From positions 62,001 through 126,000 of the forward strand of contig JANBPT010000003.1 of assembly GCA_027575765.1 (NCBI GenBank): 64,000 nucleotides of DNA, given 5' to 3'. The notes under the pieces are model-generated. The model did not search any database, was not told where the DNA came from, and was given only the letters and a program-made list of their open reading frames with translations. Position 1 is the stretch's first letter, and every line of letters starts with the position of its first letter. Positions 1,270 through 58,937 of the stretch are shown piece after piece. Both the position numbers and the translations under genes were made by a program. This DNA comes from Tieghemiomyces parasiticus (taxonomy: Eukaryota > Kickxellomycota > Dimargaritomycetes > Dimargaritales > Dimargaritaceae).

Positions 1270-3410
1270 GTTGAAGGGTGGAATGGATAAGGGTGCTGAT
1301 TGAATTGGGTTGACTAGTAGCAGCAGCGGTTAGGCTCGAGACGGCGGAGTTTAGGCGAATGATGTCAGGGGAGAGGTAAACTGTGCGGTTTGGCTGACCC
1401 ACAGGTACAAGCTTTATGGCGGGCAGGATTCAAAAGAGCTATGTGGAAAACAATCGACAAGGTGAAGAAATGGTCAACGGAATGCGGGTAAGAGGGGACT
1501 GCCACGCAGAAATGGAAGCGCGGAGAAGCGAACCGACAGAGGTGGATAGTCCCGATGGTGGGGAACGGTGGGGCCGGGTAAGGGTAAACATTAGCCAGCG
1601 ACTAATAAAAAAAATGCGCCGCAAACAAGGTCAGGCGGGACGCGGTTATGGGTATGTAGTGAAGGGAGGGGGGAAATGGCACAGTGATGGGGAGTTTAGG
1701 TGGCAGTGCGGGCGCTGCGGCACTCGGCAGCAATGGTCCCACCATCTATATTGGGCTGCCATCAGACAGACGTACAGCACTTTACCACTGGACTGCGCGT
1801 AGTGCCACATTGACCAGGCCTGGTATGCGACGGGAGCATCCTTGCAGCATTACTTGCGAGGTACTTCGGGTACCTTTAATCTTTTCATGCGGGCAGCCGG
1901 TGGAAATGGGTCCAGCGCTACCGCGCTATCCCGGGTTTGCTCTGTAGAGTCCACCGCGTTTAAAGCGCAGTCTAATACCGTATGTCCTATCTGGGCATTC
2001 TTCAACGGTCGTCCTTGCAGGCAATAACGACTATAGCTCGGCTGCAACAGCCATGCCCAAGGCCAAGGGGTCATTTCGTCTTCTCGATACGTGTGTCCTA
2101 TGAGTCCATTCCTAGTCACGCCCCGCTGGCTGCAACCTCCTCCTACCTCTGCTGACCAGTGCTGGCAAATCAGCGCTGCCTATCCGATGCGGTGCGAGGT
2201 CGAGACTCGCCACCACTAAGGTATGTATTTACGATATGCGAACCCCCGGCCTTTGCCCAATAAAGTACGGCCAGCATCTGTACTCAGATGGCGCAGGCGG
2301 CTATTCCTCACTAGCCCCAGGGTCTCACGTGAAACCCTAAGCACCTGCAGCGATCGACCAGGGTGGCCCAGTGGGCGTCTATCCGATGCGGAGGCTGCTG
2401 GACAGTGGCAGCCGAGCGCACGACGGTTGTCGTCACAAGGCCAAAACCATTGCCGAGATCAGTGCGGTTGACAGACGCAAACTTTCACTGCAGGGTTCCG
2501 CGGTTAGACCGTCGCAACGATCCGCGTGGTCATGCCTCTCGAGCTCTCGTCCAAACAATTACACGGGCCAGAGTACGCGGTTATTACACCGGACGGTCGG
2601 CGGATACAATGCCCCAGGCGTGGACTCAGGGGCGGCAGCGTGGGCAAAGTGTGCGCAGCAGGTTATGGGGATTGGACTGCGCTCGGCCAGCCCCTTGCCC
2701 TCCACTTGCGAAGCGGCACGGATTGTAGGTTTCGCCTGGGGTCGCCAGCATCAGTCGAGTCCACCGCCGCTACTCCCCACGCCACCTGGTATCACATTTT
2801 GACCCCCAGCCCTCGCCCTGTGTAGGCCTCCCATGCTGTGTTCACCTGCTCAAGGTGGAGGAGCCTGGGAGGAGGGGACGGCGACAAGTGCGCACGCCCC
2901 CCACACATGTGCGCCAGGGTGCTGGATACGGCGGGCAGCTGGGGAGCGCCTTCACCCATGTCGTCGTGATACCCGCCCCATCGGCGTCGTCATCCGCCCC
3001 CGCCCCGCCATTAATTGGACGGCTGTCCACAACTCTTCTCGTCTTTAATCCCAATTAGCTGTCTGTTACTCGTCCTTTGGCCTTTATCTCCTATCCTTAT
3101 CCTCCGCTTGATCCAATTAACCTGCGAGCCCCCTAGTCCCCGCTACCGCCCGGGTTTCTGCCCCCCCCACCACTTTCGCGCACTTACTAAACCTTCACCC
3201 TCCCTTTGGCTAGAGCGCTTCTTTCGCTGCAACCACCTATTTAGTCCGTTGCCCTGCACTGTTCACCTCGACGCTCCCTGTGGTCTAGCCGCCCGACCCT
3301 TACCTCCCGTACAAGCTACTATCCTGGCCCCGCCCCCCTCTTCCTCCCCCTTCCTGTAACCACATATTCACTCCGATCCTCCGTGCCCAATAATCCCATT
3401 CGCCGTCTCC
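1270..3410. other. Intergenic, CSE1/GUT2 divergent promoter region
   Basis: About 2.1 kb lies between two divergently transcribed genes. I find no open frame with a recognisable product; the longest frames have random-looking composition. The last ~330 bases are strongly pyrimidine-rich and are listed separately. No tRNA or repeat was recognised. Confidence 0.5.
3085..3405 (+). promoter_or_regulatory. Pyrimidine-rich promoter tract upstream of GUT2
   Basis: The strand carrying GUT2 has a long C/T-rich tract just upstream of the ATG at 3411, with many CCCT and CTTT runs. Such tracts are common just upstream of highly expressed fungal genes. A promoter/5'UTR role is inferred from position only; no TATA box is evident. 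Confidence 0.35.
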
Positions 3411-6400
3411 ATGTGGCGCCGAATCCCCACCCTCATGCACCGCCGGCCCGTGGTGTCGGCGACGCTTGCCGCGTCCGCCGCCCTCGGTACCGGCTACCTG
3501 CTGTACAGCCAGCGCGAGGCCCTCCGCGCCCGGAACCCGTTCGCGCTGCTGGGTGCGACCCCGCGGGCCGTGCATGCCGACGCCGAAGCGAAGCCCGAGT
3601 CACCCAACGCCGTCAACGACCGCCCACTGCCCTTCTGGTCGCCGCCCTCTCGCTGTGAGATGCTCAACATGCTCCAGGGCAAGACCAAGGAAGGCCAGGC
3701 CCTGGCCCGCCCGGAGGACGAAGAGTTTGACCTGCTGGTCATTGGTGGCGGTGCTACCGGTACCGGTGTGGCCCTGGACGCCGCCACCCGTGGGCTGCGC
3801 GTGGCCCTCGTGGAGCGTGACGATTTTTCCGCCGGGACCTCCTCTCGCTCCACCAAGCTTGTCCACGGTGGCGTGCGCTACCTTGAGAAGGCTGTCTGGG
3901 AGCTCGATATCGGGCAGTACTACCTGGTCAAAGAGGCCCTGCACGAGCGCAAGACCTTCCTGGACATCGCCCCTTACCTCAGCCAGCACTTGCCCATTAT
4001 GATTCCGGTCTACAAGTAAGTCATGAAGGGCCGCCCCACCCCTTACGACGCGGCTGACCCCGTTGGGGATGTGTTGTTTGGGAGGTGAGAACATCCCTCG
4101 GCGGCCGTTCGCGTTGACGAAGCGTCCCCTGGATCGTCGTTACTGGCTCTCCAATCGCGAAGGATGTCTTGGGCCAGTAGGTATTCCCCCCTTACCAATC
4201 ACTTCGGCCGATTTGTCGTTTTCTGGTTGGAGGGGGGGGCAGCATGCTTAAACGCCCTATGTCGAATGGGCGATTATCTCCCCCTCCCTGCTTCCGTGAC
4301 CTATGTGACTAACGTTCCGCTTCCTCTTGTATCACCTATCAATTTCTCGGCTTGTAGATGGTGGCAGATGCCCTACTTCTGGGCCGGCTGCAAAGCTTAC
4401 GATTTGCTGGCTGGCAGCCAGGGGCTGGAGAGCAGCTACCTGCTGACGCGCGGCAAGGCTATCGACGCTTTCCCCATGCTCAAGAAGGACCAGCTTAAGG
4501 GTGCCCTGGTCTACTACGACGGTAAGTATGGTCGAATAATACCGAGTAGCCGTTCTGCATTACATAGTGATCAATGTCACACGGTATGATGCCGATGATC
4601 TGCAGTCATTTGACACGGACCAATCAGCTGGTGGCGTCAGTGCTTCCTCCGGACCACTCACCTTGTACCCAGCCTCTACCATCGCCTTGCTGTGGTGCTA
4701 TAGGGTTGGCTGGTCAGGCGGACAAGTACTTGGCTTGGCCTCGGCTCCCACGATTTAGGCGCGTAGCCCTTAACTGTAGGCTTTACGCCCTGGCAGACCA
4801 AGGGGCATCGCTTGGGCTGCAAGGCCATCTGGTCGAATTTTCCGACCTAGAACCTTACTAATTGTCTCCGCGTCACACCGTCTTTGGCACCGGCATTCCC
4901 TCCCCCTCCTTCACAACTGGTACGTTCAGGCCAACACAATGACTCTCGCATGAACGTGGCCATCGCCCTGACCGCCATCTCGCATGGCGCCGTGGTGACC
5001 AACCATACCGAGGTCACCTCGCTCATTAAGGAGAAGGGCGCTGACGGCGCACCCGAAGCGGTTCGTGGAGCTGTCGTCCGCGACGCCCTGACCGGTGAAG
5101 AATTTACCGTCCGGGCGAAGGGAGTGATCAACGCCACAGGCCCCTTCAGCGACGCCATTCTCAACATGGATAACCCACAGGCCAAGGATATTGTGGCACC
5201 CAGCTCGGGTGTGCACATCATCCTGCCTAAGTACTACAGTCCGGATAACATGGGCCTCATCGACCCCAATACCAGCGATGGCCGAGTTATCTTTTTCCTC
5301 CCCTGGCAAGGCCACACCATCGCCGGCACCACCGACTCCCCGGCTCCTGTCGAGGCCAACCCGATACCCAAGGAGGAGGAGATCCAGTGGATCCTGGATG
5401 AGGTCCGCGGCTACCTGGATTCGGACATCAAGGTGCGGCGCGGGGACGTACTGGCGGCGTGGTCTGGTATTCGCCCGCTGGTGCGCGACCCGGCGGCGAA
5501 GAACACCGCCGCCCTGGTGCGCAGCCACATGATCAACGTGAGCCCCGGCAAGCTGTTGACCATCGCTGGCGGAAAGTGGACCACCTACCGTAACATGGCC
5601 GAGGAGACGGTGGACCGGGCCATCCAGGAGTACGGGCTTCACCCGACCAACGGATGTGTAACCAGCACCACCAAGCTGATCGGTTCGCACAATTACACCG
5701 AGAACATGTTCATCAAACTGGTGCAAAGCTTTGGTCTCGAAACGCCGGTGGCCCGCCACCTGGCCCAGGACTACGGCGACCGCGCCTGGGCGGTGTGCGC
5801 CATGGCCGAGCCCACGGGCAAGCGTTTCCCCATCTTTGGCCGCCGCCTGTCGCAGCTCCATCCGTACATCGAGGCCGAAGTGCGCTATGCCGTCAAGAAC
5901 GAGTACGCCTGCACCGCCGTGGACGTGCTGGCCCGCCGTACCCGCCTGGCCTTTGTCAATGCCCAAGCCGCCAAGGACGCCATCCCCGAGGTGGTGGATA
6001 TTATGGCTAAGGAACTCGGCTGGGACGCCGCGCGGATCGAGAAGGAGAAGCGCGATACGGTGGAGTTCTTGCACGCCATGGGCCTGCCCACCGCTGAGGA
6101 TAGCAGCTCACCCCTCCCGCCCGACGGCCGCCGACTCGTGGCGGCCCTGACGGGTAACGATGACGCCAAGGCCGAGTCTAGCAACCGTACCGCCAACCCC
6201 TTCGCCTCCTACGCGCCCATGTACGAGGAAATCTCGATGCGCTACAATCAGGGCCAGTTCCACCCGGACGAGCTGGGCCGCTTCATCGCCGCCTTTGAGG
6301 AGCACGACCGCCGCAGCGCCGGCGAGATCACCCGCGCCGACCTCAAACCCATCCTGGCCGGCCTGGGTATTGAGATCAACTCAGCCCAGCAGTCCTCCAT

Positions 6401-42861: not shown

Positions 42862-45303
42862 CTAATGGACGCTGGCTAACGGTCGCAGCGGGATGGTGGA
42901 CTCGTCGTTGTCGCCGTCCTTTGCGTACCGGCCAGATTCATCGGTCTCAATGTCACCGCCCGCACTCCGGCCGGTGGCCACTTTCAAGCCCGCTACCGCC
43001 GACGACGGCAGGGGCCGGTCTGGGTATCGTAACCGCCAGTCCTCGACCTTCCGGACGTAGAGCTTCCGGTACTCATGTTCTCGGATTTCAAACATGACCT
43101 GGATGGCGATGAAGATACAAATCAGCGAGGCCACGATAAAGACGGCGCCGCGGAGACAGAAAATCTCGGTCAGCATGGTACGGATTCCGTCGACGCCGAC
43201 GGCGAAACCGACCAGGTTGGCCACCATCATCATGCAAATGTTGAGCACGCAGCCGACGGCGCAGAGGTGGCGGAAGTACCGGTGCTGCGAGTAGGGTGGG
43301 CGGTTAAAGACGTAGGACAGGAGGAGCTCCGGGGCGAACATGAGAGAGATGAGCCAGGCCCAGGCCAGCAGCCGCAGGGAAATGTCGTGCCACAAGGCAA
43401 CGAACGTGAACACCGCCCACACGTTATACGCGGCATAGCGGCGGCCCCCCAGAGGGACGTAGACGTAGCGGACGAGCCAGCGGTTGAAGCTGCAATGCCA
43501 GTCGCGCCAGAAACTCTGGGCCGAGTAGTTGTTGCTCATGCACCGTCGCATGTTTTCCAGGACCTCCAGCCCGTCGGCTAGGGCCCAGAACCGGAAGAAC
43601 CGCCACATGATCAGCAACTTGAGCCAGATGAACTTGAGACTGAAATAGCCAATCATGCTGATTTGGAACGGCGAATACCCCGACCAGGCGTGTGCACGGC
43701 TGATGGCCACCACGTAAAATAGGTGTTGCATGCATTCCATGAGGAAGAGGGCGCCCAGGAGACGTAGGCCGTAGGTCACGGTGCCCCGCGTAGTGACCTC
43801 GCGCGACGGGAACCGGTGTTGCCAAATGAAATTGTTGAAGGTGATGATGGGGCCCGCTAAGTACAGTGGTACGTAGAAGAGGTAAGCCAGATAGTGCACC
43901 CAATTGTAGTCGCTAGGGGCCAGGGGCTGGGTGATGCGGTCGCGATCGGTGCTCGGCCGGGGGTGGCCGTGCCAGGAGGCGGGGACCGGGGCGACACCGT
44001 CGGTGATGGCAGTGGCCGGGTTCACATCGGCGACCCCTACCGTCGCCGGGTCGGCCGTGGGGCTGGCCGGGTCGTTCACACCCTGCGAGGATTCCGTATG
44101 GGAGGTTGCGGCCCTCGATGTCCGCTCAGCCAGCAAGGACCAGTGGTAGTCCATCGCGAAGGACACCATACGTAGCATGGTGATGTTGAAAAATATGTCC
44201 CACCGGGTCATAATCCCGCGGTTGTGGTCCAGGAACGCCAGCCGGGGCGCGAAGTCGGCGAAATGGTAGCCGTGGTACGTTTCGTTCAAAAAGAGCATCC
44301 CCACATTGAAAACCCAGATCGTGATGGGACCGACAACGGGCCAGCCGCCTAAGGCCCGGGCCAGGCCGTAGTTTATCCCCGTGAGGAACAGGATGATGAG
44401 CAGGCTGTTGCCAAACACAATGTACAGGACTGCCAGCGACAGGATAAGGGTCAGGTACAGGCGCGGGAGGACCCGTGGCCAGCCACAGCAAGTGGTCGCC
44501 GAGCTGAACAACCGGGCGGGGCCGGACGCAGGTGAGAGCGCCGGGCTGGCCACCCCGGGCATATTGCCGGCGGTCGCTCGCCGACAGGCCCTTAACAGGG
44601 CGGCGCCGCCTCCACGGTTCAAAGCGACAAAGGCCAGCATCCCCAGGCTGAGCAGTGGGAGATGATTGCGAAATCCGCGGTACTGCGTGTCGCTGTTGTC
44701 CATGGGTCGGCTACCAAACAGCCAGCCCTCGCTCAGCTCATGCTCGTAGACCTTGAAGTTGGGTAGCTCGGGAGAGCTCAGTTGGTAGGTCGAGTAGGCC
44801 ATGAACGGCACCACGGTAAGAAACCCGACGTAGTAGAAATAGAACTCCGGGGTGCGCCAGCGAGACGGTTTGGGCGGCTTCATCCTGAACTCCGAGTCAC
44901 CGCCGCCGGTGGAGGCGGAATGGGACGCCGTGGAGGACGGCATGCGATCCAAGGGGGAAGGGATGGACGACGGTGAGTTATCGACAGTGGGATGTGGAGA
45001 AGCGGTGGTGGCGACAGCTTCTAATGGGGTGGACAGGGAGGGTCCTCTAAACAAAGTAGAGTGGTGGAGGTACACTGGTAGGGATGAGTACGGACGGGAT
45101 GAGATCCAGTCCCTGATAAGGTAGTCGCTGCAGAGGGTTGAGGAGGAGGACTGCGTCGGATGAGCCAGGGAGCTTGCTGAGCAAGAAGACATAGGGTCTA
45201 GCGCGAGTGGGAAATTCGGTGGCGTATGGAGCACGCTAGCGTGGGCGATGCCAGCCAATACCGAATTTAATGATGCATAGGACGAGGGATTAAGCGGATA
45301 CAT
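42862..45303 (-). CDS. GUP1: MBOAT O-acyltransferase, glycerol uptake protein 1
   Basis: Gup1 is an ER membrane-bound O-acyltransferase that remodels GPI-anchor lipids and was first found through glycerol uptake. Intronless; 813 residues from the first in-frame ATG. The conserved part begins KPSRWRTPEFYFYYVGFLTV and includes YEHELSEGWLFGSRPMDNSD, TQYRGFRNHLPLLSLG, NYSAQSFWRDWHCSFNRWLV and VFTFVALWHDISLRLLAWAW, with the MBOAT catalytic His at about residue 640 and several hydrophobic segments. It is longer than yeast Gup1 (560): a Ser/Pro-rich N-terminal extension of about 140 residues precedes the first membrane segment. An internal ATG at 44943 (MPSSTASHSASTGGGDSEFR) would give 693 residues and may be the real start. 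The C terminus is a short hydrophilic tail. Confidence 0.9.
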   Translation of the reverse strand: MYPLNPSSYASLNSVLAGIAHASVLHTPPNFPLALDPMSSCSASSLAHPTQSSSSTLCSDYLIRDWISSRPYSSLPVYLHHSTLFRGPSLSTPLEAVATTASPHPTVDNSPSSIPSPLDRMPSSTASHSASTGGGDSEFRMKPPKPSRWRTPEFYFYYVGFLTVVPFMAYSTYQLSSPELPNFKVYEHELSEGWLFGSRPMDNSDTQYRGFRNHLPLLSLGMLAFVALNRGGGAALLRACRRATAGNMPGVASPALSPASGPARLFSSATTCCGWPRVLPRLYLTLILSLAVLYIVFGNSLLIILFLTGINYGLARALGGWPVVGPITIWVFNVGMLFLNETYHGYHFADFAPRLAFLDHNRGIMTRWDIFFNITMLRMVSFAMDYHWSLLAERTSRAATSHTESSQGVNDPASPTADPATVGVADVNPATAITDGVAPVPASWHGHPRPSTDRDRITQPLAPSDYNWVHYLAYLFYVPLYLAGPIITFNNFIWQHRFPSREVTTRGTVTYGLRLLGALFLMECMQHLFYVVAISRAHAWSGYSPFQISMIGYFSLKFIWLKLLIMWRFFRFWALADGLEVLENMRRCMSNNYSAQSFWRDWHCSFNRWLVRYVYVPLGGRRYAAYNVWAVFTFVALWHDISLRLLAWAWLISLMFAPELLLSYVFNRPPYSQHRYFRHLCAVGCVLNICMMMVANLVGFAVGVDGIRTMLTEIFCLRGAVFIVASLICIFIAIQVMFEIREHEYRKLYVRKVEDWRLRYPDRPLPSSAVAGLKVATGRSAGGDIETDESGRYAKDGDNDESTIPLRPLASVH

Positions 45304-45529
45304 TTTGGGACTGCCGGGTGGCACATGACAAGGCTCTCCTGTGCAACTTGGGCCTGTCCCAAGCTCACTGGTGGGTCCTGGCCAGGGAAGCGGGTCGTTG
45401 GGCCACCATTATTATCAGGTACCAATCTACTTTGCAGCGCCAAGCCTCACTCCGCCCGCGTCAATCCTCTCCAGGTCAAGGTGGCAGAAAGATGGCGGGG
45501 CCGGCACCATACCCTGGACACCGACTGTA

Positions 45530-45718
45530 TTATGCAGAGGTGTTCGCATAGCAGCATATATACATCTGTGCTTGTTAAGATGAGAATTGCGTACTACCCA
45601 CTCACCAACTGTGCGTTGTGTGTGACGCGTTATTTGCACGGGCTGTAGCCAGCTAGTATGCGTCGTCGCATTTTGCACCAGACCGAGTGGATCCTGTGCT
45701 GCACCTCTATATAAATAT
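45530..45718 (+). repeat. Dispersed repeat, copy 2
   Basis: This segment matches the minus strand of 34881-35117. The reading frame is now broken: PTHQLCVVCDALFARAVAS is followed by a stop and then YASSHFAPDRVDP, where copy 1 reads on openly. A 2-base length difference separates the frames of the left and right halves. It ends where the CpG-poor Fanzor segment begins, so it may be part of that element's insertion site or an older element into which it jumped. Confidence 0.7.
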
Positions 45719-46029
45719 GTAAGGCTGACAGGTGGTTACAAAGGCTAGATGGCCAAGAAAAAATAAGGTCCTAGAAGAAAAAAGGGTCCAACAAAAATAA
45801 CCAATAGGAGCCACTACTAAGGCCAGACATCAAAATTTCCACATTTAATAACTTTAGTGCCCCACTTTACCTTCTTACACAACATGTTTCTTTTCCCTTT
45901 TCTTTGAGCTCAGCACTCCCCTTGCCATGCAATTACTCAACCCTTTATTACGCCATTAATGGCCAAAGGCAAGGCCAGTATCCTTAAGACCTCTCTGTGG
46001 TCTGTTGGGTGGAAGTAGAAGGACCAGGA

Positions 46030-48110
46030 GTCACTGGAGGAGCTGGTGTGGACTACCCACTTTCTCACAACACACACATACCAGTTGACATGCTGGATTT
46101 TCCTCCACAAGCTGGAGAGGAGCCATGACTTTGACCTCAGTGACTTCCTTGGCCAGACATTCTTTTACAAAGTCTTCCTCAGCCTGGCCGGGAGGAAGTT
46201 CATGCAGAAGAAGGTTAAGCCATCCACTGAAGTCATTAGGGTACTCAAAAACACTTGGACGGCTACACAAAGACTGCCAACAGTAAGCCTGGGAAACACA
46301 ACAACATGGCCCAGGTGGCAGCCTATGTCAGCACCATCATGACTGCCTGCAAGATCAATGTCCAGCCGAGGTTTGGCGAGCACCTTCAGTGCACTATCCA
46401 CACCCTGCTGAATGTGTGCCAGCAAAAGGAGGTACTGCGCAAGTAAATGGCCAGCAGCAATCAATACAAGTTCCACCATACCTGTGAGGAGAGGATCTGG
46501 GGGCCAGTATGCCAGGTCAAGGAGGCATTGTGATGCAGAGACCCTGATTGCAGCAAGCTCCCACCAGAAGGGCAGCTCATTCTTGTTAATCTGTTACTAA
46601 TCCTCTAAGTGTATGATGTCACTTATCTGATTCTTGAGTATGACATTTATTATGATGTCAAGAAGTCTCCAGAAAAGCATTTCAAGGTGTGGTGATTGGG
46701 AACCACCACATTAGATCATCCCAGGGTAAAGTCCAAGTCTACTATTTCAGAACCACAAATTCTGTGATAGTAGAATAGCCTTTTGGTTATGGTATTAGAC
46801 TTGGGCCTAGTATCAACACACAAGGCATTTTAGGAGCTCTGCAAGTTCCTGGAGGTGAGGGAGGCAAAGTCAGTCCAGTGCTTTCCTCTCCAGACTTCTT
46901 GGGTGCCATGCCACCTGCACATAAATATGTGGATCCTCTGCCAGCATATCTTAAAGTGGGCATCCAAGAATGAGCCATTGATCAACGAAATATAGGGGGG
47001 GAGGCTCTTGACCTCCATTGCAAGGTATTCAAGGACCATCATGGCAGGAGGTTCTTAAGGGCTATCCAGACAGGTGGGGTGTCTGTATCATTCATACTCA
47101 AGGCCCCCAAGACAAAGAGGAACCTTAGTTGCAAGCTAAGCCAGACTGATGCTGATGGGGTTTCCACCAATGACAGTGCCGTGGAGCTCAAGGACAAGCA
47201 CAAGGCTGACAGCATGAGGGACCAGGGCACTCAAAGGAAGCAGAACAGGAGTGACCACTCCACAGACTGCTCCTACACACACACACACACACACACCATC
47301 CCACGCAGTGAGCTACAAGATACAGAGGGTAAGAATCTCCTCATTGATCTGGGTCATTGTGGTATTCACTATGATGATGACAGCACCATCCAAAAGACCA
47401 AGGCTAGGCTGGCACAGGTATGCTGCAGCATCATCAATGCCACCAGGTATAAGCTCTACCTTGAGGTGTGGGAAGGGAATGGTTGCTGCTCAGCAGCTTT
47501 TACAGCAGGACCACAAATGCCCATACAACATCAATGCACACCATGCACAAGTATGGCCCAGTGAAGAGTGGCTGGGGGAAGCATCAGGCCAGAAAGATGC
47601 ATCTGTATACTGGCCATGTGACACACAATTATCCACTCCATCAGAAATTTTGCCTCTATGCCTCTATCAGCCAGAGGTAGGCTGATGCTTGGCTGGTGTG
47701 CACACTACGGCACAGGTTCAACAAGGACATGGTACTCATCATGGGAACCTGGTCCACTACCATGGGCCCATCTGTGACAAGGGCTGATGGGTAATGTTCA
47801 AGAGGCATGGATTGAAGGTCTATCTGGTGGATGAGTACCACACACCCATGACCTGTCCTGAGTGCTGCAACTATCTGGAGACCTTAGACCATGTCCCCAA
47901 CCCATGACCATGGCAGTGAGTAAAGCATCCTAAAGTTAAATGATGTGGGCTTCTAAGGTGTATAAACCTAAATTGTTTGAAGTCTATGGAATATTCTAGG
48001 AAACCATCTTGCTTACAGCTGTGGAGGTGGGCTATGGTAGCAGTGCTCAACTTCAGGCACATCCCCTTGAGCCTCCAGGCCAAAGGTGGGATTCCAGAGC
48101 AGTCCCAGCA
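46030..48110 (+). pseudogene. Fanzor (TnpB-like RNA-guided nuclease) pseudogene
   Basis: Intact Fanzors are eukaryotic TnpB relatives that cut DNA under guidance of an RNA from the element's end. Blocks in order: THTYQLTCWIFLHKLE and DFDLSDF (near 46064-46145); AAYVSTIMTACKINVQPRFG (near 46315-46375); TGGVSVSFILKAPKTKR (near 47070), the usual TDGVSVSF strand with D changed to G; KNLLIDLGHCGIHY, RuvC-I, with the Asp codon at 47346-47348; MHLYTGHVTHNYPLHQKFCL (near 47600); VLIMGTWS at 47732-47755, for the usual GDWS; KVYLVDEYHTPMTCPECC, with the CPEC zinc pair at 47854-47865; CGLLRCINLNC after a TGA (from 47944); and LWRWAMVAVLNFRHI at 48019-48063. Families have WNRD there; here Ala (48031-48033) replaces the RuvC-III Asp and Trp replaces Arg. 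At least four frameshifts and several stops make it non-functional. Confidence 0.85.
47274..47297 (+). repeat. (CA)n microsatellite inside the Fanzor relic
   Basis: Twelve or so CA units interrupt the pseudogene between its TDGVSVSF-like strand and RuvC-I. They translate as alternating Thr-His, so this is an expansion acquired in a linker or after decay. Confidence 0.85.
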
Positions 48111-48300
48111 TGAAAATCCCAACACAAAGGCTGTTCCCCACCGGGTCCATAAAGAACTTTCCGGCCCTGTTATTACAGGGCTAAGCTGTGGTAAAAGCAA
48201 GCTGCTTGGGCCACTCTTCATGCAATGTAATGGAGGGGAGGCATCCTAAAGGTGAATCAGCTGGACAGAGAGTTTCATCTAAGTAATGGGTGGAATATCC

Positions 48301-48875
48301 ACAGCCTGCTGGGAGACAACGTACTGATAGGCCCGACCTTTAGCCATTCTGCTATTTCCCACTTTGCTGTATGTTCAATAATACACATGCAAATGGCTTG
48401 GCTTATTAAACACAAAATTTGCCTCCATCAGAATGAAAATTCACGGGATATACACTACAAATACTACACACTGGTGGCATGATATCCATCATCACATGGC
48501 GCAAACTCATTTTCAAATAATAGTAGATTAACCGACCCCTTCCATCCGCCCTGGCCTCAATATCTCGTCACCTGCAGCCAACCGCATTGGATGGCAATGT
48601 TTTGTAAACCATTATTCCTGTGCAAGCCCTGTGGTGAGTTTTTCGCCACTATGCGCGACAACGACGCAGCTAACCCCGCCAGCCCTGGTTGCCCATGCAC
48701 CCTTTGACTAATACCCTTCCATACCTCGCCAAACCCAGGCCCTAGCTTTCCGCATTGCCCGTCTAACTGCCCTCTCCCCACCCCCTCCGAAGTCATCTTT
48801 CAAAATCTGCCTACAGCCTACAACATTCTACTCCGCTGGTCATCCTATCCACTGCCCCACCCCCACATTGCTACC
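48301..48875. other. Between Fanzor relic and HAD phosphatase gene
   Basis: AT-rich until about 48480, then normal GC with C-rich promoter sequence before the ATG at 48876. No coding frame of note. Confidence 0.45.
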
Positions 48876-52621: not shown

Positions 52622-55286
52622 GGTAGGGTCAATAATACAAAGGTATGTCGGGGCTTGAAAGGCGGGCGAAGCGAATACTCAGGCAACGGCCAATAACAGA
52701 AGGGGGGCTGAGGGCTACAATTTCAGCAGGGACAAGCAGAGGAGTTAGTAACGTTGGCCACGGGCGGACGGTGGATGGTCAAGGAAGATAATTTGGACGC
52801 TTTTTTTGGAAAACCACAGGTGTCGAAGGTTTGGAACGGAGTAGTAAGCGAGTTAAAGACTTTGGAGAGTAGGTTGTGCAGGGGGTCTAAAAGTGCAGGG
52901 CGGAAGGCTGTTTAAGTGCAACAGGGAAACAGGGTGTGTAGTGTGTGTAAATGCGCGGGCTGTAGAGTAGCAGCGGGAGGGCAACGCGAGTCGGTGCAAA
53001 TAAAGCGGGGATCCTAACTGATACCGGCGGGCCGTATAAGCGGTAACGACGTACAGGGAGATAAGGATGGGCGGTGGGGGGGATGTGAGGGTGATGGCGA
53101 TGGTGACGGCACAAAACGAGAGAAGGGGAGGGGCAGCGCAAGGTCGGACTTTAATACCTGCCGTGCGACAACCGCCACTGGCCCCTCGTGTGGAACAACG
53201 AAGCGGGAGAGGAGGAGGAAGAGAAGGGGGGCCGACGGAGTCGAAAGGCGTGGTGGAGAAAATGTTTCTTCTCCATCCCACACAACCGCGCTAGCGGCAC
53301 TGGCGGGCCCAGCGCTGTGTCGCGAAATCGAAGGCGGCCTGGGGCCCTCCACCCCCGCCCCCCTCCTCTCCACCGCCCCGACCAAGGCAGCATACAGTAC
53401 CAAGGGAGGCCCCGGGGTGCATTATAAGGCGTAAAAGACGGCGGATACTTGGCCATTGTGGGGTGATCCGGGGACAGGGCCCTGTGACCACCCTCTTTCT
53501 TTCGCTCTCCCCTCCCCACCTCCTGCCCTGTCCGCGGCCTGGGCCTCTACATTGCTGACACAGACTCGTAAACCTCTGTCTGTATGCACGTCGTGTCAAC
53601 TGGCCCCTTCCCACCATCACGGCCTAGTCTTCCGCCCTAGAACCCTGCGAGTCCACCGCCGCCACGTCGGCTCGCCTAAAGCATGACGGCAGGACCCGCG
53701 TCCTATCCGGCCGCTTTGGCACTGGCCTGGTGTGCCCAGTATCTACCCTCACTTCCCATGCCGCACGAACCCACCCCGCCGATATGGCCACGGACTGGCC
53801 GCTCAAACAACTTCCATAAGGACGACGTGCCAGCCTGCCGCAGCATGCCTGGATGGCCCGGCTAGGAAACCCCGCGCCTCAACAATTATCCGTGGGTGCC
53901 ACCGAGCCGGCTCAGCTGTCACCATATCGTCATGCATGGGTGCCAGGCCGAACCGGTGCACGGAAGCACAGCGGAGCCGCCCGAGGGACTAGTTGTCCCC
54001 CCGGGGTGAGCCAGCAAATGCCACGGCCGGCCCGGTCGCCGAGATTGCCTTGACGTCATCACGGTCAATCCGTGACTATACGCGGTTAGCATATATTGAG
54101 AGCCCGGGGTAATGCGGCTGCCGGTGATTTGTGACGCTAGGGGCTTCCCAAGTGCAAGGAGGCGGCTGTTGAGCTGGGAAGTATTTGCTGGCCAGGGACT
54201 CTGGCAGTCGGTCCAGGGAGGGCCGGTGGATTGCGCCCGCATCCGTGCCAGTTCAGGACCCTACCCTAGCAGTGCCCGATACCGTCCCGGATATGCCCCC
54301 AGTCCCAACTTCTCAGCAAGGCCCATGAATCCCAGAGCAATTTGGCAGGGGTGGTGTCCCAATCTCCGCCACTCTACAGCCTATCCCCTCCCCACCTGGT
54401 CTCAAGCTTCGGGCCAGGATTGGTGGCAAGAATCAGGAGCCTGGCGGGATTAGTCAGATTGTCCCATCGCGGGGTGTCGCTACCTGGCAAAGGTGAGGAT
54501 GGCTCCACAACCAACAGGTTGGATCCAGGTATCGCTATTAACTATAATCGGGCTGCCCCTCTACCCCTCTCTGTCCACGTGCGGGGGAGGGGAGGACTGG
54601 GCGGTACAAGAGCTGGAAAGCGGGCCCGTGGGTCGATGCTAATTGATTCCTCGAATCGGCAGTGGCGGCGAGGTCAGCGCAGTACCCCTCAGGCCGGTCT
54701 TTTAAGTGCTTCGACAGCCTACAGCGGAGTAAGCCGCAGTGGGCTGCGCAACCATCAGCCGATGTCGGCTGCTGCTGCCGCCATTTATAGCCTGCAGCGT
54801 GGTCTTTGCTTGGCAGGTGATTTAACCTCACTGCACTAGCCATGCGGTGCCCATGGTCTCTCGGGCCAAAAGCCTTTCCCTCGCGGCCATACCGTGTCCA
54901 TGTAGGGTACAAATAGCGCATAGTCACCATCGAAAGCTCGGGGATGCAACTGGGCGTTGGCAGGCGCGCCGGCTGTCGCCCACTGTGACCGCGAGGCCGG
55001 GGCGGTTTCCGCTCGCGCCGTCGCGCTTCAACCTCTCACTTAATGGTAGGCCATGTGGATTCCGACCTGCTCATGCTCTCTGCTCCGCTGGCCGATCTGC
55101 ATCCCGTCCAAGTTTACATTTCCCTTTTTTCCCTTCTCACACCAGTCCACGATAGAGAAAGCGAGATTTAGCTGCGCTGTCCTTGCAATCCCTAGTTTTT
55201 GCATTCCTCCATCCATCTCATCTGGCACTTTTATCTCACTTTACCTACGCCTCTAGCAGCCTTCTCGCCTCCTCCTGTAGCCCACG
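52622..55286. other. Divergent promoter region upstream of RPB2
   Basis: About 2.7 kb between two divergent genes. Overlapping frames of 60-165 codons on both strands (for example 54342-54839) have no motif and random-like composition. Purine-rich (plus) sequence to the left and C/T-rich sequence at 55070-55286 are the two promoters. No RNA gene recognised. Confidence 0.45.
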
Positions 55287-58200
55287 ATGGAGTCCGCCGA
55301 CCAGTACCAGGAGGAGTACGAGTACGAGCAGGACGATGAGATCTCGCAGGAGGACTGCTGGACCGTCATCTCGTCCTTCTTCGAGGAGAAGGGCCTGGTC
55401 CGCCAGCAGCTCGACTCGTTCGACGAGTTCATCCAGAACACGATGCAAGAGTTGGTAGACGAGAACCACAAGCTGGTCATCCAGACCACCACCCAGGGCA
55501 ATTCAGTGGACAGCGAGCTCATCAAGCGCTACTTTATCAAGTTCGGCCAGGTGTATCTGTCCAAGCCCACCATGACCGAGGCCGACGGCAGTACCAACAG
55601 CATGTTCCCGCAGGAGGCCCGTCTGCGCAACCTGACCTACGCGGCCCCGCTCTACATGGATATGGGTCTCCGGGTGACCACCGCTGACCCCAACGACCCG
55701 CGCTACCAGGGCCGGAACCCCTTCACCGAAATGGAGCGCGCCGGCATCAAGGAGGACGTGTCTCCCGAGGAGATGATGAAGGTGTTCATCGGCAAGATGC
55801 CCATCATGCTGCGATCCGACTACTGCGTACTTAAACACAAGACCGACGAGGAGCTGCACGCCGTGAACGAGTGCCCCTATGATCAGGGCGGCTACTTTGT
55901 CATCAACGGTTCCGAGAAGGTGCTGATCGCCCAGGAGCGCATGGCCACCAACACCGTCTACGTGTTTGCCAAGGCCCCACCCTCGCCCTACACCTTTACC
56001 GCCGAGATCCGCAGTTGCTCCGAGAAGGGTTCCAAGAAGGCCAGCACCGTCTTCATCAAAATGTACGGTCGCCAGACCGACCGCGGCTCAAACCAGGGCA
56101 TCAAGGCCACCATCCCGTATATCCGTCAGGATGTGCCCGTCGTGGTCATCTTCCGCGCCCTTGGACTGGTTGCCGATCGTGACGTGCTCGAGCACATTTG
56201 CTACGACACCAACGACCCGGCCATGCTGGAGCTACTCAAGCCCTGTATCGAGGAGGCCTTCGTGATCCAGGACAAAGATGTGGCCCTCGACTACATTGGC
56301 AAGCGCGGTAGCACCCTGGGCAGCACCCGCGACAAGCGCATCAAGTACGCCACCGACATTTTGCAGAAGGAGTTCCTCCCACACATCGGCACTGATCCGC
56401 ACAATGAGACGCGCAAGTCTTTCTTCTTTGGCTACATGATCCACCGCCTGCTCCTGGCCGCCCTGGAGCGCCGCCCTCTGGACGATCGCGACCACTACGG
56501 CAAGAAACGTATGGACCTGGCGGGCGCCCTGTTGGGACAGCTCTTCAAGACCCTATTCCTCAAGCTCACCAAGGACATTAGCAAGTACCTGCAAAAGTGC
56601 ATTGACTCGGGCCGCGAATTTAACCTGACCCTGGCCGTCAAGTCCCAGACCATCACCAACGGGCTCAAGTACTCGCTGGCCACCGGTAACTGGGGGGAGC
56701 AGTCCAAGGCCATGCAGACCCGTGCTGGGGTGTCACAGGTGCTCAACCGGTACACCTTTGCCTCCACCCTGTCCCATCTGCGGCGCTGCAACACCCCCAT
56801 CGGCCGTGACGGTAAACTGGCCAAGCCTCGCCAGCTGCATAACACCCACTGGGGCATCGTCTGTCCCGCCGAGACCCCCGAGGGCCAGGCCTGTGGGCTG
56901 GTCAAGAACCTGGCCCTCATGTCCTACGTCACCGTGGGCACCGCCGCGGCCCCCATTGTTGAGCTGCTGGAGGAATGGGCCATGGAGAATCTGAACGAAG
57001 TGTCCCCGACCAACATCGCCGGCGCCACTAAAATCTTTGTCAACGGTGTGTGGGCCGGCATCCACTCGGGCCCCGCCGATCTGGTGCGCACCTTCAAGGA
57101 TCTGCGGCGCAAGGGTGATATCGACCCCGAGGTGTCCATTGTGCACGACACACGCGAGCGCGAGCTGCGCTTCAGCACCGACGCCGGCCGGGTGTGTCGC
57201 CCGCTGTTTGTGGTGGAGAACCTCCGGCTGCTTATCAACAAGGAGCACATCAACCTGCTCATCAACACGGTGACCGACGAGGGTGACTCGTATGCCTGGC
57301 CTGAGCTTATCCACTCGGGCGTGATGGAGTACATGGACGCCGAGGAGGAGGAAACGGCCATGATCTGCATGACGCCCGAGGACCTACGCGACTCCCGGAC
57401 CCTGTTTGAACACGGGTACAGCCAGGAGCCCGAGCGCGACTCGACGGCGCGCGTGCGCGGGTCGTCGTCCTTGTACTCGCACACCTGGACCCACTGCGAG
57501 ATCCACCCCAGCATGATCCTCGGTATCTGCGCCAGTATCATCCCATTCCCGGACCACAACCAGTCTCCGCGTAACACGTACCAGTCGGCCATGGGTAAGC
57601 AGGCCATGGGTATCCACCTGACCAATTACCAGTCCCGCATGGACACCCTGGCCAACATTCTGTACTACCCGCAGAAGCCGCTGGCGACCACGCGGTCCAT
57701 GGAGTACCTCCGTTTCCGTGAGCTCCCGGCCGGCCAGAACGCCGTTGTGGCCATCCTGTGCTACTCGGGCTACAACCAGGAGGACTCGCTCATCATGAAC
57801 CAGAGCAGTATCGACCGCGGTCTGTTCCGCAGTCTGTTCTACCGAAGCTACATGGACCAGGAGAAGAAGCTCGGCATGGTGGTCATGGAGTCGTTCGAGA
57901 AGCCCGGCCGTGACAACACGGTGCGGCTCAAGCACGGGACCTACGAGAAGTTGGAGGGTGACGGTCTGATCGCGCCGGGCATCCGTGTGTCGGGCGACGA
58001 TATCATCATTGGCAAGACGGCCCCGCTGGCCGAGCACTCCACCGAACTGGGCCAACGCCTGGTCACCCACACCAAGCGCGATGTGAGCACGCCACTGCGC
58101 AGTACCGAGACGGGTATCGTTGACCAGGTCATGTTGACCACGAATCAGGAGGGCCTCAAGTTCGTCAAGGTGCGCGTGCGCAGTACGCGTGTCCCCCAGA

Positions 58201-58937
58201 TGGGTGACAAGTTCGCTAGTCGTCACGGGCAGAAGGGTACCATTGGCATTACGTACCGTACTGAGGATATGCCCTTCACGGGCCAGGGCATCACGCCCGA
58301 CCTCATCATCAACCCGCACGCCATCCCCAGTCGAATGACCATTGGGCACATGGTAGAGTGTCTACTCAGTAAGCTATCGACGCTCACGGGGTCCGAAGGC
58401 GACGCCACGCCCTTCACGGACGTCACGGTCGAGGCCGTATCCAACGCCTTGGCCGAGCACGGCTACCAAAAGCGAGGGTTCGAGGTCATGTACAACGGCC
58501 ACACGGGCCGTAAACTCACCGCCCAGGTGTACTTTGGCCCCACGTACTACCAGCGTCTCAAGCATATGGTGGACGACAAGATTCACTCGCGGGCCCGCGG
58601 GCCCGTGCAGATCCTCACCCGCCAGCCCGTCGAGGGTCGGTCGCGGGACGGTGGCCTGCGGTTCGGGGAGATGGAGCGGGACTGCATGATCTCGCACGGG
58701 GTTGCCCAGTTCCTGAAGGAACGCCTGTTTGACGCGTCCGACGCCTACCGTGTCCACGTGTGCGACCTCTGCGGCCTCATCGCGATCGCCAGTCTCAAAA
58801 AGAACGCGTTCGAGTGTCGCGTGTGCCGTAATACCACTCAAATCTCCCAGATCCATATCCCTTACGCCTGTAAGCTGTTGTTCCAGGAACTCATGTCCAT
58901 GAACATCGCCCCGCGTCTCATGGTCAACCCGTTGTAA
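55287..58937 (+). CDS. RPB2: RNA polymerase II second-largest subunit
   Basis: RPB2 forms half of the Pol II active centre. Intronless, 1216 residues (yeast 1224). The start [20 protein letters not shown] is acidic; [20 protein letters not shown] follows as in other Rpb2. Recognisable blocks are [49 protein letters not shown] [51 protein letters not shown] and the anchor region [20 protein letters not shown]. The C-terminal zinc site is CDLCGL then CRVC. The family order and length are complete. Codon use is strongly G/C-ending, as expected for a highly expressed gene here. The ATG at 55287 is the first in frame after a C/T-rich leader. Confidence 0.98.

Follow-up and report, generated by a model that had tools for sequence, protein, structure and literature searches.

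The window (the whole 64,000-nucleotide stretch of DNA that was analysed) carries on its plus strand, at 46019-48099, a broken Fanzor1 gene spread over three frames. Fanzors are eukaryotic RNA-guided nucleases. The element that contains the gene sits between a minus-strand membrane-protein gene at 42862-45408, which by eye on its translation we take to be MBOAT-like, and a plus-strand gene from about 48900 that is presumably phosphatase-like, again judged from its translation. The features of the locus are as follows.

45523..45524, no strand: left target-site position, GA in the window and TA in the allele on contig C569
45525..48523, plus: whole Fanzor1 transposon relic (3.0 kb), left end CTGTATTATGCAGAGG, right end CAAATAATAG, from copy alignments
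45525..45548, plus: left terminal inverted repeat, about 24 bp, imperfect, from copy alignments
46019..46264, plus: Fanzor N-terminal block, frame 2, from the read-through match
46261..46687, plus: Fanzor block with in-frame stops, frame 1
46688..46820, plus: nested 133-bp mobile element with TG...CA ends and a 5-bp duplication, CAAGG, at 46683-46687 and 46821-46825
46822..46993, plus: Fanzor block LCKFLEVREAKSVQCFPL, frame 1
46995..47470, plus: Fanzor block with TGGVSVSF and RuvC-I LLIDLGH, frame 0
47358..47375, plus: site of a deletion of about 40 codons; the lost block is present in the related proteins P0001-P0004
47471..47790, plus: Fanzor block up to IMGTWS, frame 2
47788..47904, plus: RuvC-II Glu and first zinc-ribbon half VYLVDEYHTPMTCPEC, frame 1
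47944..48099, plus: second zinc-ribbon half CGLLRCINLNC and RuvC-III LWRWAMVAVLNFRHI (48019-48063), frame 1
48100..48523, plus: 3' non-coding right end, by analogy the candidate place of a guide-RNA scaffold
48500..48523, minus: right terminal inverted repeat, 17 of 24 positions matching the left end
48524..48525, no strand: right TA target-site duplication, from copy alignments

We translated the window copy across its breaks into 659 residues, writing X for stops and XXX for the insert, and searched this read-through against the PDB. It matched two Fanzor1 proteins, PpFz1 at E 5.7e-58 and SpuFz1 at E 1.1e-20, along two colinear stretches in each case, which rules out chance as the source of the window peptides. 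The search, at E up to 10, returned six rows; the third was a TnpB-type transposase (E 0.053) and the remaining three were unrelated (E 0.27 or worse). The sister copy C1192 alone matched PpFz1 (7.3e-10) and SpuFz1 (3.2e-6) and nothing else. This highly significant, colinear homology to experimentally solved Fanzor1 proteins supports the assignment of the window gene to Fanzor1, and bears out an earlier note that had proposed a Fanzor relic here. Neither six open pieces nor four read-through pieces gave a Pfam match above the cut-off; the best sub-threshold match, PF07282 (E 0.0027), is by itself too weak for identification. That match, and a TNB zinc ribbon common to Fanzor1, Fanzor2 and bacterial-type TnpB, are what could be said for a Fanzor2 or TnpB relic. 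We consider such an origin exceedingly improbable, since only the Fanzor1 chains score significantly, and the closest protein found for the window gene, P0001, matches the Fanzor1 of Guillardia theta (E 5.1e-4).

All peptides that the earlier note had quoted as a Fanzor block order over three frames were located on the plus strand: the N-terminal part (46019-46264, frame 2), the predicted TDGVSVSF-like strand, which reads TGGVSVSF (47070-47093, frame 0), LLIDLGH of RuvC-I (47337-47357, frame 0), IMGTWS (47738-47755, frame 2), the zinc ribbon VYLVDEYHTPMTCPEC (47818-47865, frame 1), CGLLRCINLNC (47944-47976, frame 1) and AVLNFRHI (within 48019-48063, frame 1). Two motif assignments need amending. 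IMGTWS lies upstream of the catalytic glutamate, which is the E of VDEYHTP, and the RuvC-III segment around AVLNFRHI has lost its catalytic aspartate in the window copy: alanine replaces it at 48031-48033, with WRWAM where P0001 has WNRDT. Of the RuvC triad, the window copy has two residues left, an Asp in LLIDLGH and the Glu of VDEY, and has Ala in third place. Both Cys pairs of the TNB zinc ribbon are present (CPEC and CGLLRCINLNC), with stops in between. The stitched copy has 10 stops and no intact reading frame; with its frameshifts, a missing conserved block, the lost RuvC-III Asp and a nested insertion, the gene is a relic. The interval first given for it was 46030..48110; the whole element is larger, at 45525-48523.

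The genome (46.5 Mb in 1363 contigs) contains at least 14 Fanzor-bearing copies at 8 sites; the copies on 13 other contigs are a lower bound, with 40 of 418 candidates scored. Six of the eight sites occur as pairs with 92-96% identical flanks (left flank only for C729/C847), so that two haplotypes seem to have been assembled. One report suggests that Dimargaris cristalligena is non-haploid (PMC10386755). Between the eight sites the flanks are unrelated, and they stop at one common right end and, where it can be located, one left end. We set the element ends where the flanks begin to diverge when up to 13 copies are aligned. The right end, GCAAATAATAG-TA, is seen in 13 copies, and the left end, TA-CTGTATTTTGCAGAGGTGTTCGCA, was located in 10; C134, C457, C729 and C847 do not show it. 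Judged by eye, TA stands at 9 of the 12 right ends that align without a gap (exceptions C424, C1192 and C935; C457 is gapped there) and at 9 of 10 left ends, the exception being the window. The 17 of 24 matching positions of the inverted repeats were likewise counted by eye, on family-majority letters. An imperfect 24-bp terminal inverted repeat and a TA duplication are found, as in Tc1/mariner-type transposons, and the element may be of mariner type. We saw no empty (unoccupied) target site. The 350-500 bp or so behind the left terminus differ between copy subgroups. What the locus holds is one dead copy of a DNA transposon with inverted repeats and flanking TA, in a Dimargaris-like mycoparasitic fungus; a Fanzor1 gene is the only cargo recognised. 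In the right end, a candidate guide-RNA fold gave alifold z values of -1.7 to -6.1, with structures that change with the span chosen. Two further regions, L075 and L076, contain long host-like ORFs; their likeness to the family is limited to short stretches of the left end, with no further blastn match to the copies.

The earlier note had called for a search of the genome for intact copies. With three Fanzor queries, broken copies were the only ones among the genome matches; local identities were 41-67% with the D. elegans query and 38-50% with the Dispira query. The same searches returned a short broken C-terminal Fanzor fragment, C721:87556-87744. Stitched copies carry 1-12 stops each. The block of about 40 codons after RuvC-I is absent from all four copies that cover it (window, C858, C729 and C1192, at four different sites), and this common deletion indicates that the gene was probably already dead when the family spread or was homogenised. 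Differences between copies are spread evenly over the codon positions (734/635/627 in nine copy pairs), which means that they diverged as pseudogenes. In P0001 numbering, all eight copies that cover position 572 have a TGA there, but this is a change from CGA that may have recurred. The window and five other copies have a TAG at position 172 (46831-46833, in block LCKFLEVREAKSVQCFPL), where the window's allele C569 has Y. At position 89, 6 of 12 copies carry a TAA, among them the window, and C569 has E. Because these stops are shared across sites and missing from the allele, gene conversion or recurrence must have acted. Of 11 relic copies with sequence at the RuvC-III Asp, 9 keep it; the window and C134 have lost it. 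That the Fanzor gene died before the family spread is likely but unproven; the shared stops cannot serve as proof of it, two of them being missing from C569.

The insert that interrupts the window copy belongs to a mobile family of its own. Of 41 matches to the 133-bp element, 23 are 100% identical (40 of 367 candidates scored). It occurs in 12 of the 14 Fanzor copies, as 14 insertions in both orientations: 5 have clean duplications, 8 lie without one at deletion junctions and 1 is cut by a contig end. This far exceeds a random expectation that we estimate, from 367 copies and 46.5 Mb, at roughly 0.2-0.3. TG...CA ends and a 5-bp duplication are those of a solo or short LTR, the duplication being missing in some copies; the element could possibly be a MITE. 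We rejected an introner (GT...AG with a duplication), given the varied 5-bp duplications and the two orientations. Three non-allelic copies, C465, C965 and C935 (L039, L040 and L041), have one insert junction, from window 46517 via the 133-bp element to 48010, and the alleles of two of them, C424 and C911, have different junctions. The common junction suggests gene conversion between dispersed copies.

A derivative of about 1.25 kb, without most of the Fanzor gene, has the same ends as the full element. The family-majority left 35-mer occurs 88 times in the genome when up to 3 mismatches are allowed, against 0 for a control, and the right 384 bp lie at no fewer than 40 places (40 of 154 candidates scored). 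A left motif on the same strand within 4 kb accompanies 22 of the 40 scored right ends, against 0 in the opposite-strand control, and in 18 of these 22 pairs, alleles still included, the ends are 1.13-1.27 kb apart. One short copy, L077, was read, and the other 17 are known from end spacing alone. L077 is flanked by TA on both sides and has the ends of the Fanzor element; it consists of the left 185 bp, a middle unmatched to the copies, and the right 569 bp with C-terminal Fanzor remnants. A search for a partner transposase (DDE_3, 39 matches) placed none near the listed element ends. Four contigs have a DDE_3 match as well as one of the listed left-end motifs, and there at least 12 kb separate the two; the only match inside a family copy belongs to a mariner nested in C569, whose inverted repeats differ. 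This nested Tc1/mariner-like element (L037, oriented about 3245-4680; TIR CAGGTGCCTCAAATTATTGTGAGG, TA, a 413-residue frame) itself contains a 133-bp element.

These observations bear on whether the copies arose through transposition of dead elements. Duplication, recombination or gene conversion could instead have multiplied them or made them alike, as the long flanks common to six pairs, the identical junction at C465, C965 and C935, and the stops shared by several sites and absent from the window's allele would allow; the shared deletion, too, could have been passed between copies by conversion. However, the pairs, with flanks 92-96% identical, behave as alleles, eight sites with unrelated flanks have the same right end and, where located, the same left end, and the end spacing of about 1.25 kb recurs at 18 further loci. 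We therefore regard this alternative as quite unlikely and favor transposition of dead elements.

Mutation in the family is focused on repeats and on CpG. The observed/expected CpG ratio is 0.16 in the window element (insert excluded) and 0.12-0.20 in four other copies, against 0.88 in the rest of the window (SD 0.10, minimum 0.63, in 55 overlapping 3-kb stretches). Between alleles, the frequency of CpG-site transitions is 0.427 in elements (five pairs) and 0.079 in flanks (four pairs), that in other contexts 0.106-0.141 and 0.058-0.070, and overall divergence 0.119 and 0.049, respectively. CpG methylation is presumably the cause.

The RPB2 gene of the window (55281-58934) is 90% identical to that of Dimargaris cristalligena, 81% to Dispira simplex and 75% to Dichotomocladium elegans, which identifies the window species as a Dimargaritales fungus near Dimargaris. 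Among 5.8 billion proteins, the window read-through found four, P0001 from D. elegans (E 1.4e-201) and three from Coemansia, in a search that is seeded on shared 5-residue words, may miss relatives and did not have PpFz1 among its matches. P0001 is the hypothetical protein BX666DRAFT_1063248 of this member of the Mucorales and matches PpFz1 at E 1.1e-102. A profile search extended the set to 74 relatives, mostly from Coemansia and Mucorales and including one partial protein from Dispira. Five long relic copies are 59.3-63.3% identical to the D. elegans protein over 549-577 residues, 35.7-41.7% to the Dispira Fanzor over 264-297 residues, 30.2-40.4% to three Coemansia rows and 28.9-34.3% to rows from Pilaira and one Rhizopus. 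Two gene models stand out among the relatives: P0004 (Coemansia sp. RSA 1933) joins an HTH_32 DNA-binding domain to a C-terminal Fanzor half, which may be either a genuine fusion or an artefact of the gene model, and P0195 (D. elegans) joins a second Fanzor fragment, 72% identical to P0001 over 16% of it, to a PPR model. Pattern matches among viral contigs numbered 47, none of which was a relative by tblastn.

We built a tree from 27 chosen proteins and five relics, a selection that is not exhaustive and leaves out PpFz1 and Fanzor2. D. elegans joins the relics with 100/100 support, on the Coemansia/Dispira side of a midpoint root, the other eight Mucorales rows group apart with two further rows (97/99), and Coemansia rows occupy five places. 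Constraining all nine Mucorales rows to one clade was rejected (lnL -483.5, AU p 3.6e-59), as were clades of the relics with Dispira (AU p 7.7e-20) and of the relics with Dispira and D. elegans (AU p 7.3e-5), with p-values that are overconfident because the clades were tested post hoc, eight rows are compositionally unusual and the relic rows are stitched.

The best reading of these sequence comparisons is that Mucorales and a Dimargaritales-like lineage exchanged the element horizontally, for which genome-level confirmation is needed. Descent is hard to accept when the two species differ by 25% in RPB2 and, even after decay, by only somewhat more in the transposon protein. The evidence covers one Mucorales species, with D. 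elegans seen as protein, relic rows stitched and some rows compositionally unusual. P0001 is without the N-terminal 70-80 residues or so that the relics and PpFz1 have. Ancient paralogy with losses would require a Fanzor lineage that predates the split of Mucoromycota and Kickxellomycota and was kept only in these species. Hidden paralogy is real, as Kickxellomycota hold several diverged Fanzor1 lineages (the five places of Coemansia), and the tree took in only part of the known proteins. Nevertheless, decayed relics that still stand at 59-63% to the D. elegans Fanzor are not far under the 75% of RPB2, while the Fanzor of Dispira, from the same order, stands at 36-42% and two other Mucorales rows at 29-34%. 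The rejected clade of relics and Dispira points the same way, in a test that alone does not exclude paralogy. On balance we find paralogy unlikely. Contamination of the D. elegans culture by a mycoparasite before sequencing would also make the D. elegans copy group with that of a mycoparasite, and mycoparasites are grown on Mucorales hosts. This explanation is very unlikely: P0001 lies on one 413-kb contig, P0195 is joined to its PPR model on a 2.06-Mb contig, the D. elegans RPB2 (1.65-Mb contig) is 75% identical and not Dimargaritales-like, and at 59-63% identity P0001 did not come from the window species.

Horizontal transfer thus being preferred, its route and direction can be considered. 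Dimargaritales are described as attacking mostly Mucoromycota hosts and as coming mostly from dung (PMC10386755), and a closest known relative in the order attacked by such parasites suggests that the element crossed between phyla. Placement in the thinly sampled tree suggests the direction Kickxellomycota to Mucorales. No paper pairing Dichotomocladium with a mycoparasite was found in the literature searched, so a direct host-parasite pair is not documented there. A specific scenario, in which mycoparasitism carried the Fanzor1 transposon from a Dimargaritales-like parasite into its Mucorales host range, with an open Fanzor frame surviving in Dichotomocladium, and the parasite's family died, was mutated at CpG and kept spreading as a non-autonomous element derived from the Fanzor one, is one that we hold tentatively, at somewhat less than even odds.

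A general account can be given more firmly. By analogy with other Fanzors, the intact protein would have cut matching DNA under the direction of a guide RNA from the element's right end. Fanzor guide RNAs originate at the end of the element, and for TnpB, cutting of the emptied donor site is thought to let repair copy the element back. The ends would have been mobilised in trans by a mariner-type transposase, so that Fanzor activity may not have been needed in cis for later spread. That spread probably proceeded without a working Fanzor in cis, with a trans copy supplying Fanzor or none being needed. Silencing by CpG methylation, followed by deamination, may then have eroded the copies. The lineage would have exchanged the element with D. 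elegans, its ancestor or an intermediary, rather than sharing it by descent. Taken whole, this account of a dead Fanzor1 transposon, trans-mobilised spread, CpG decay and exchange with the D. elegans lineage has, in our estimate, a probability of about 0.9.

In the paper on the PpFz1 structure, the authors speculate on a possible role of Fz1 when genes pass between Parasitella, a mycoparasite, and Mucorales hosts (PMC11423790). A mycoparasite of another phylum, with a Fanzor1 family whose nearest protein found is in Mucorales, makes this idea testable. In this family a Fanzor element may have outlived the nuclease that it once encoded, a point relevant to the question of whether Fanzors help transposition in cis. 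The family also shows CpG mutation confined to repeats in an early-diverging fungus.

Intact Fanzors are reported to cut DNA guided by an RNA (PMC10432273, PMC11423790). The view that few fungal lineages have described copies, put forward in the earlier note, is only partly right, against a source in which Fz1 is called highly spread in fungi (PMC10432273). In the literature searched, no paper naming both Fanzor and Dimargaris was among the matches listed, and none naming both Fanzor and Coemansia was found. The Coemansia and Dispira Fanzors (P0002-P0004, P0125-P0133, P0142 and others) are Fanzor-like and from the same phylum as the window species, but the four rows compared are 30-42% identical to the relics and lie on other branches of the tree. 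P0001 has the same Fanzor1 block order as the relics. Unlike them, it is an open gene model of 656 residues with DPG, DEYRTS and NRD motifs, whereas the relics are broken and without the block of about 40 codons; as the model is without the N-terminal block seen in the relics, P0001 may itself be truncated. PpFz1 (Parasitella parasitica, PDB 9cf0), with colinear homology to the window relic, is likewise from a mycoparasite (PMC11423790) and differs in being a functional protein with a solved structure. PpFz1 has a RuvC insertion domain. As far as our searches go, what is new here is the host order, the close Mucorales relative, the short family derived from a Fanzor element and the CpG decay. 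Fanzor1 in elements with inverted repeats and TA duplications is already known from SPu-1 of Spizellomyces punctatus, about 2.1 kb with 33-bp TIRs, in which SpuFz1 is likewise the single ORF (PMC3627910). SPu-1, however, is described in nine copies with intact ORFs, whereas in the window family no intact copy was found and a shorter derivative is common.
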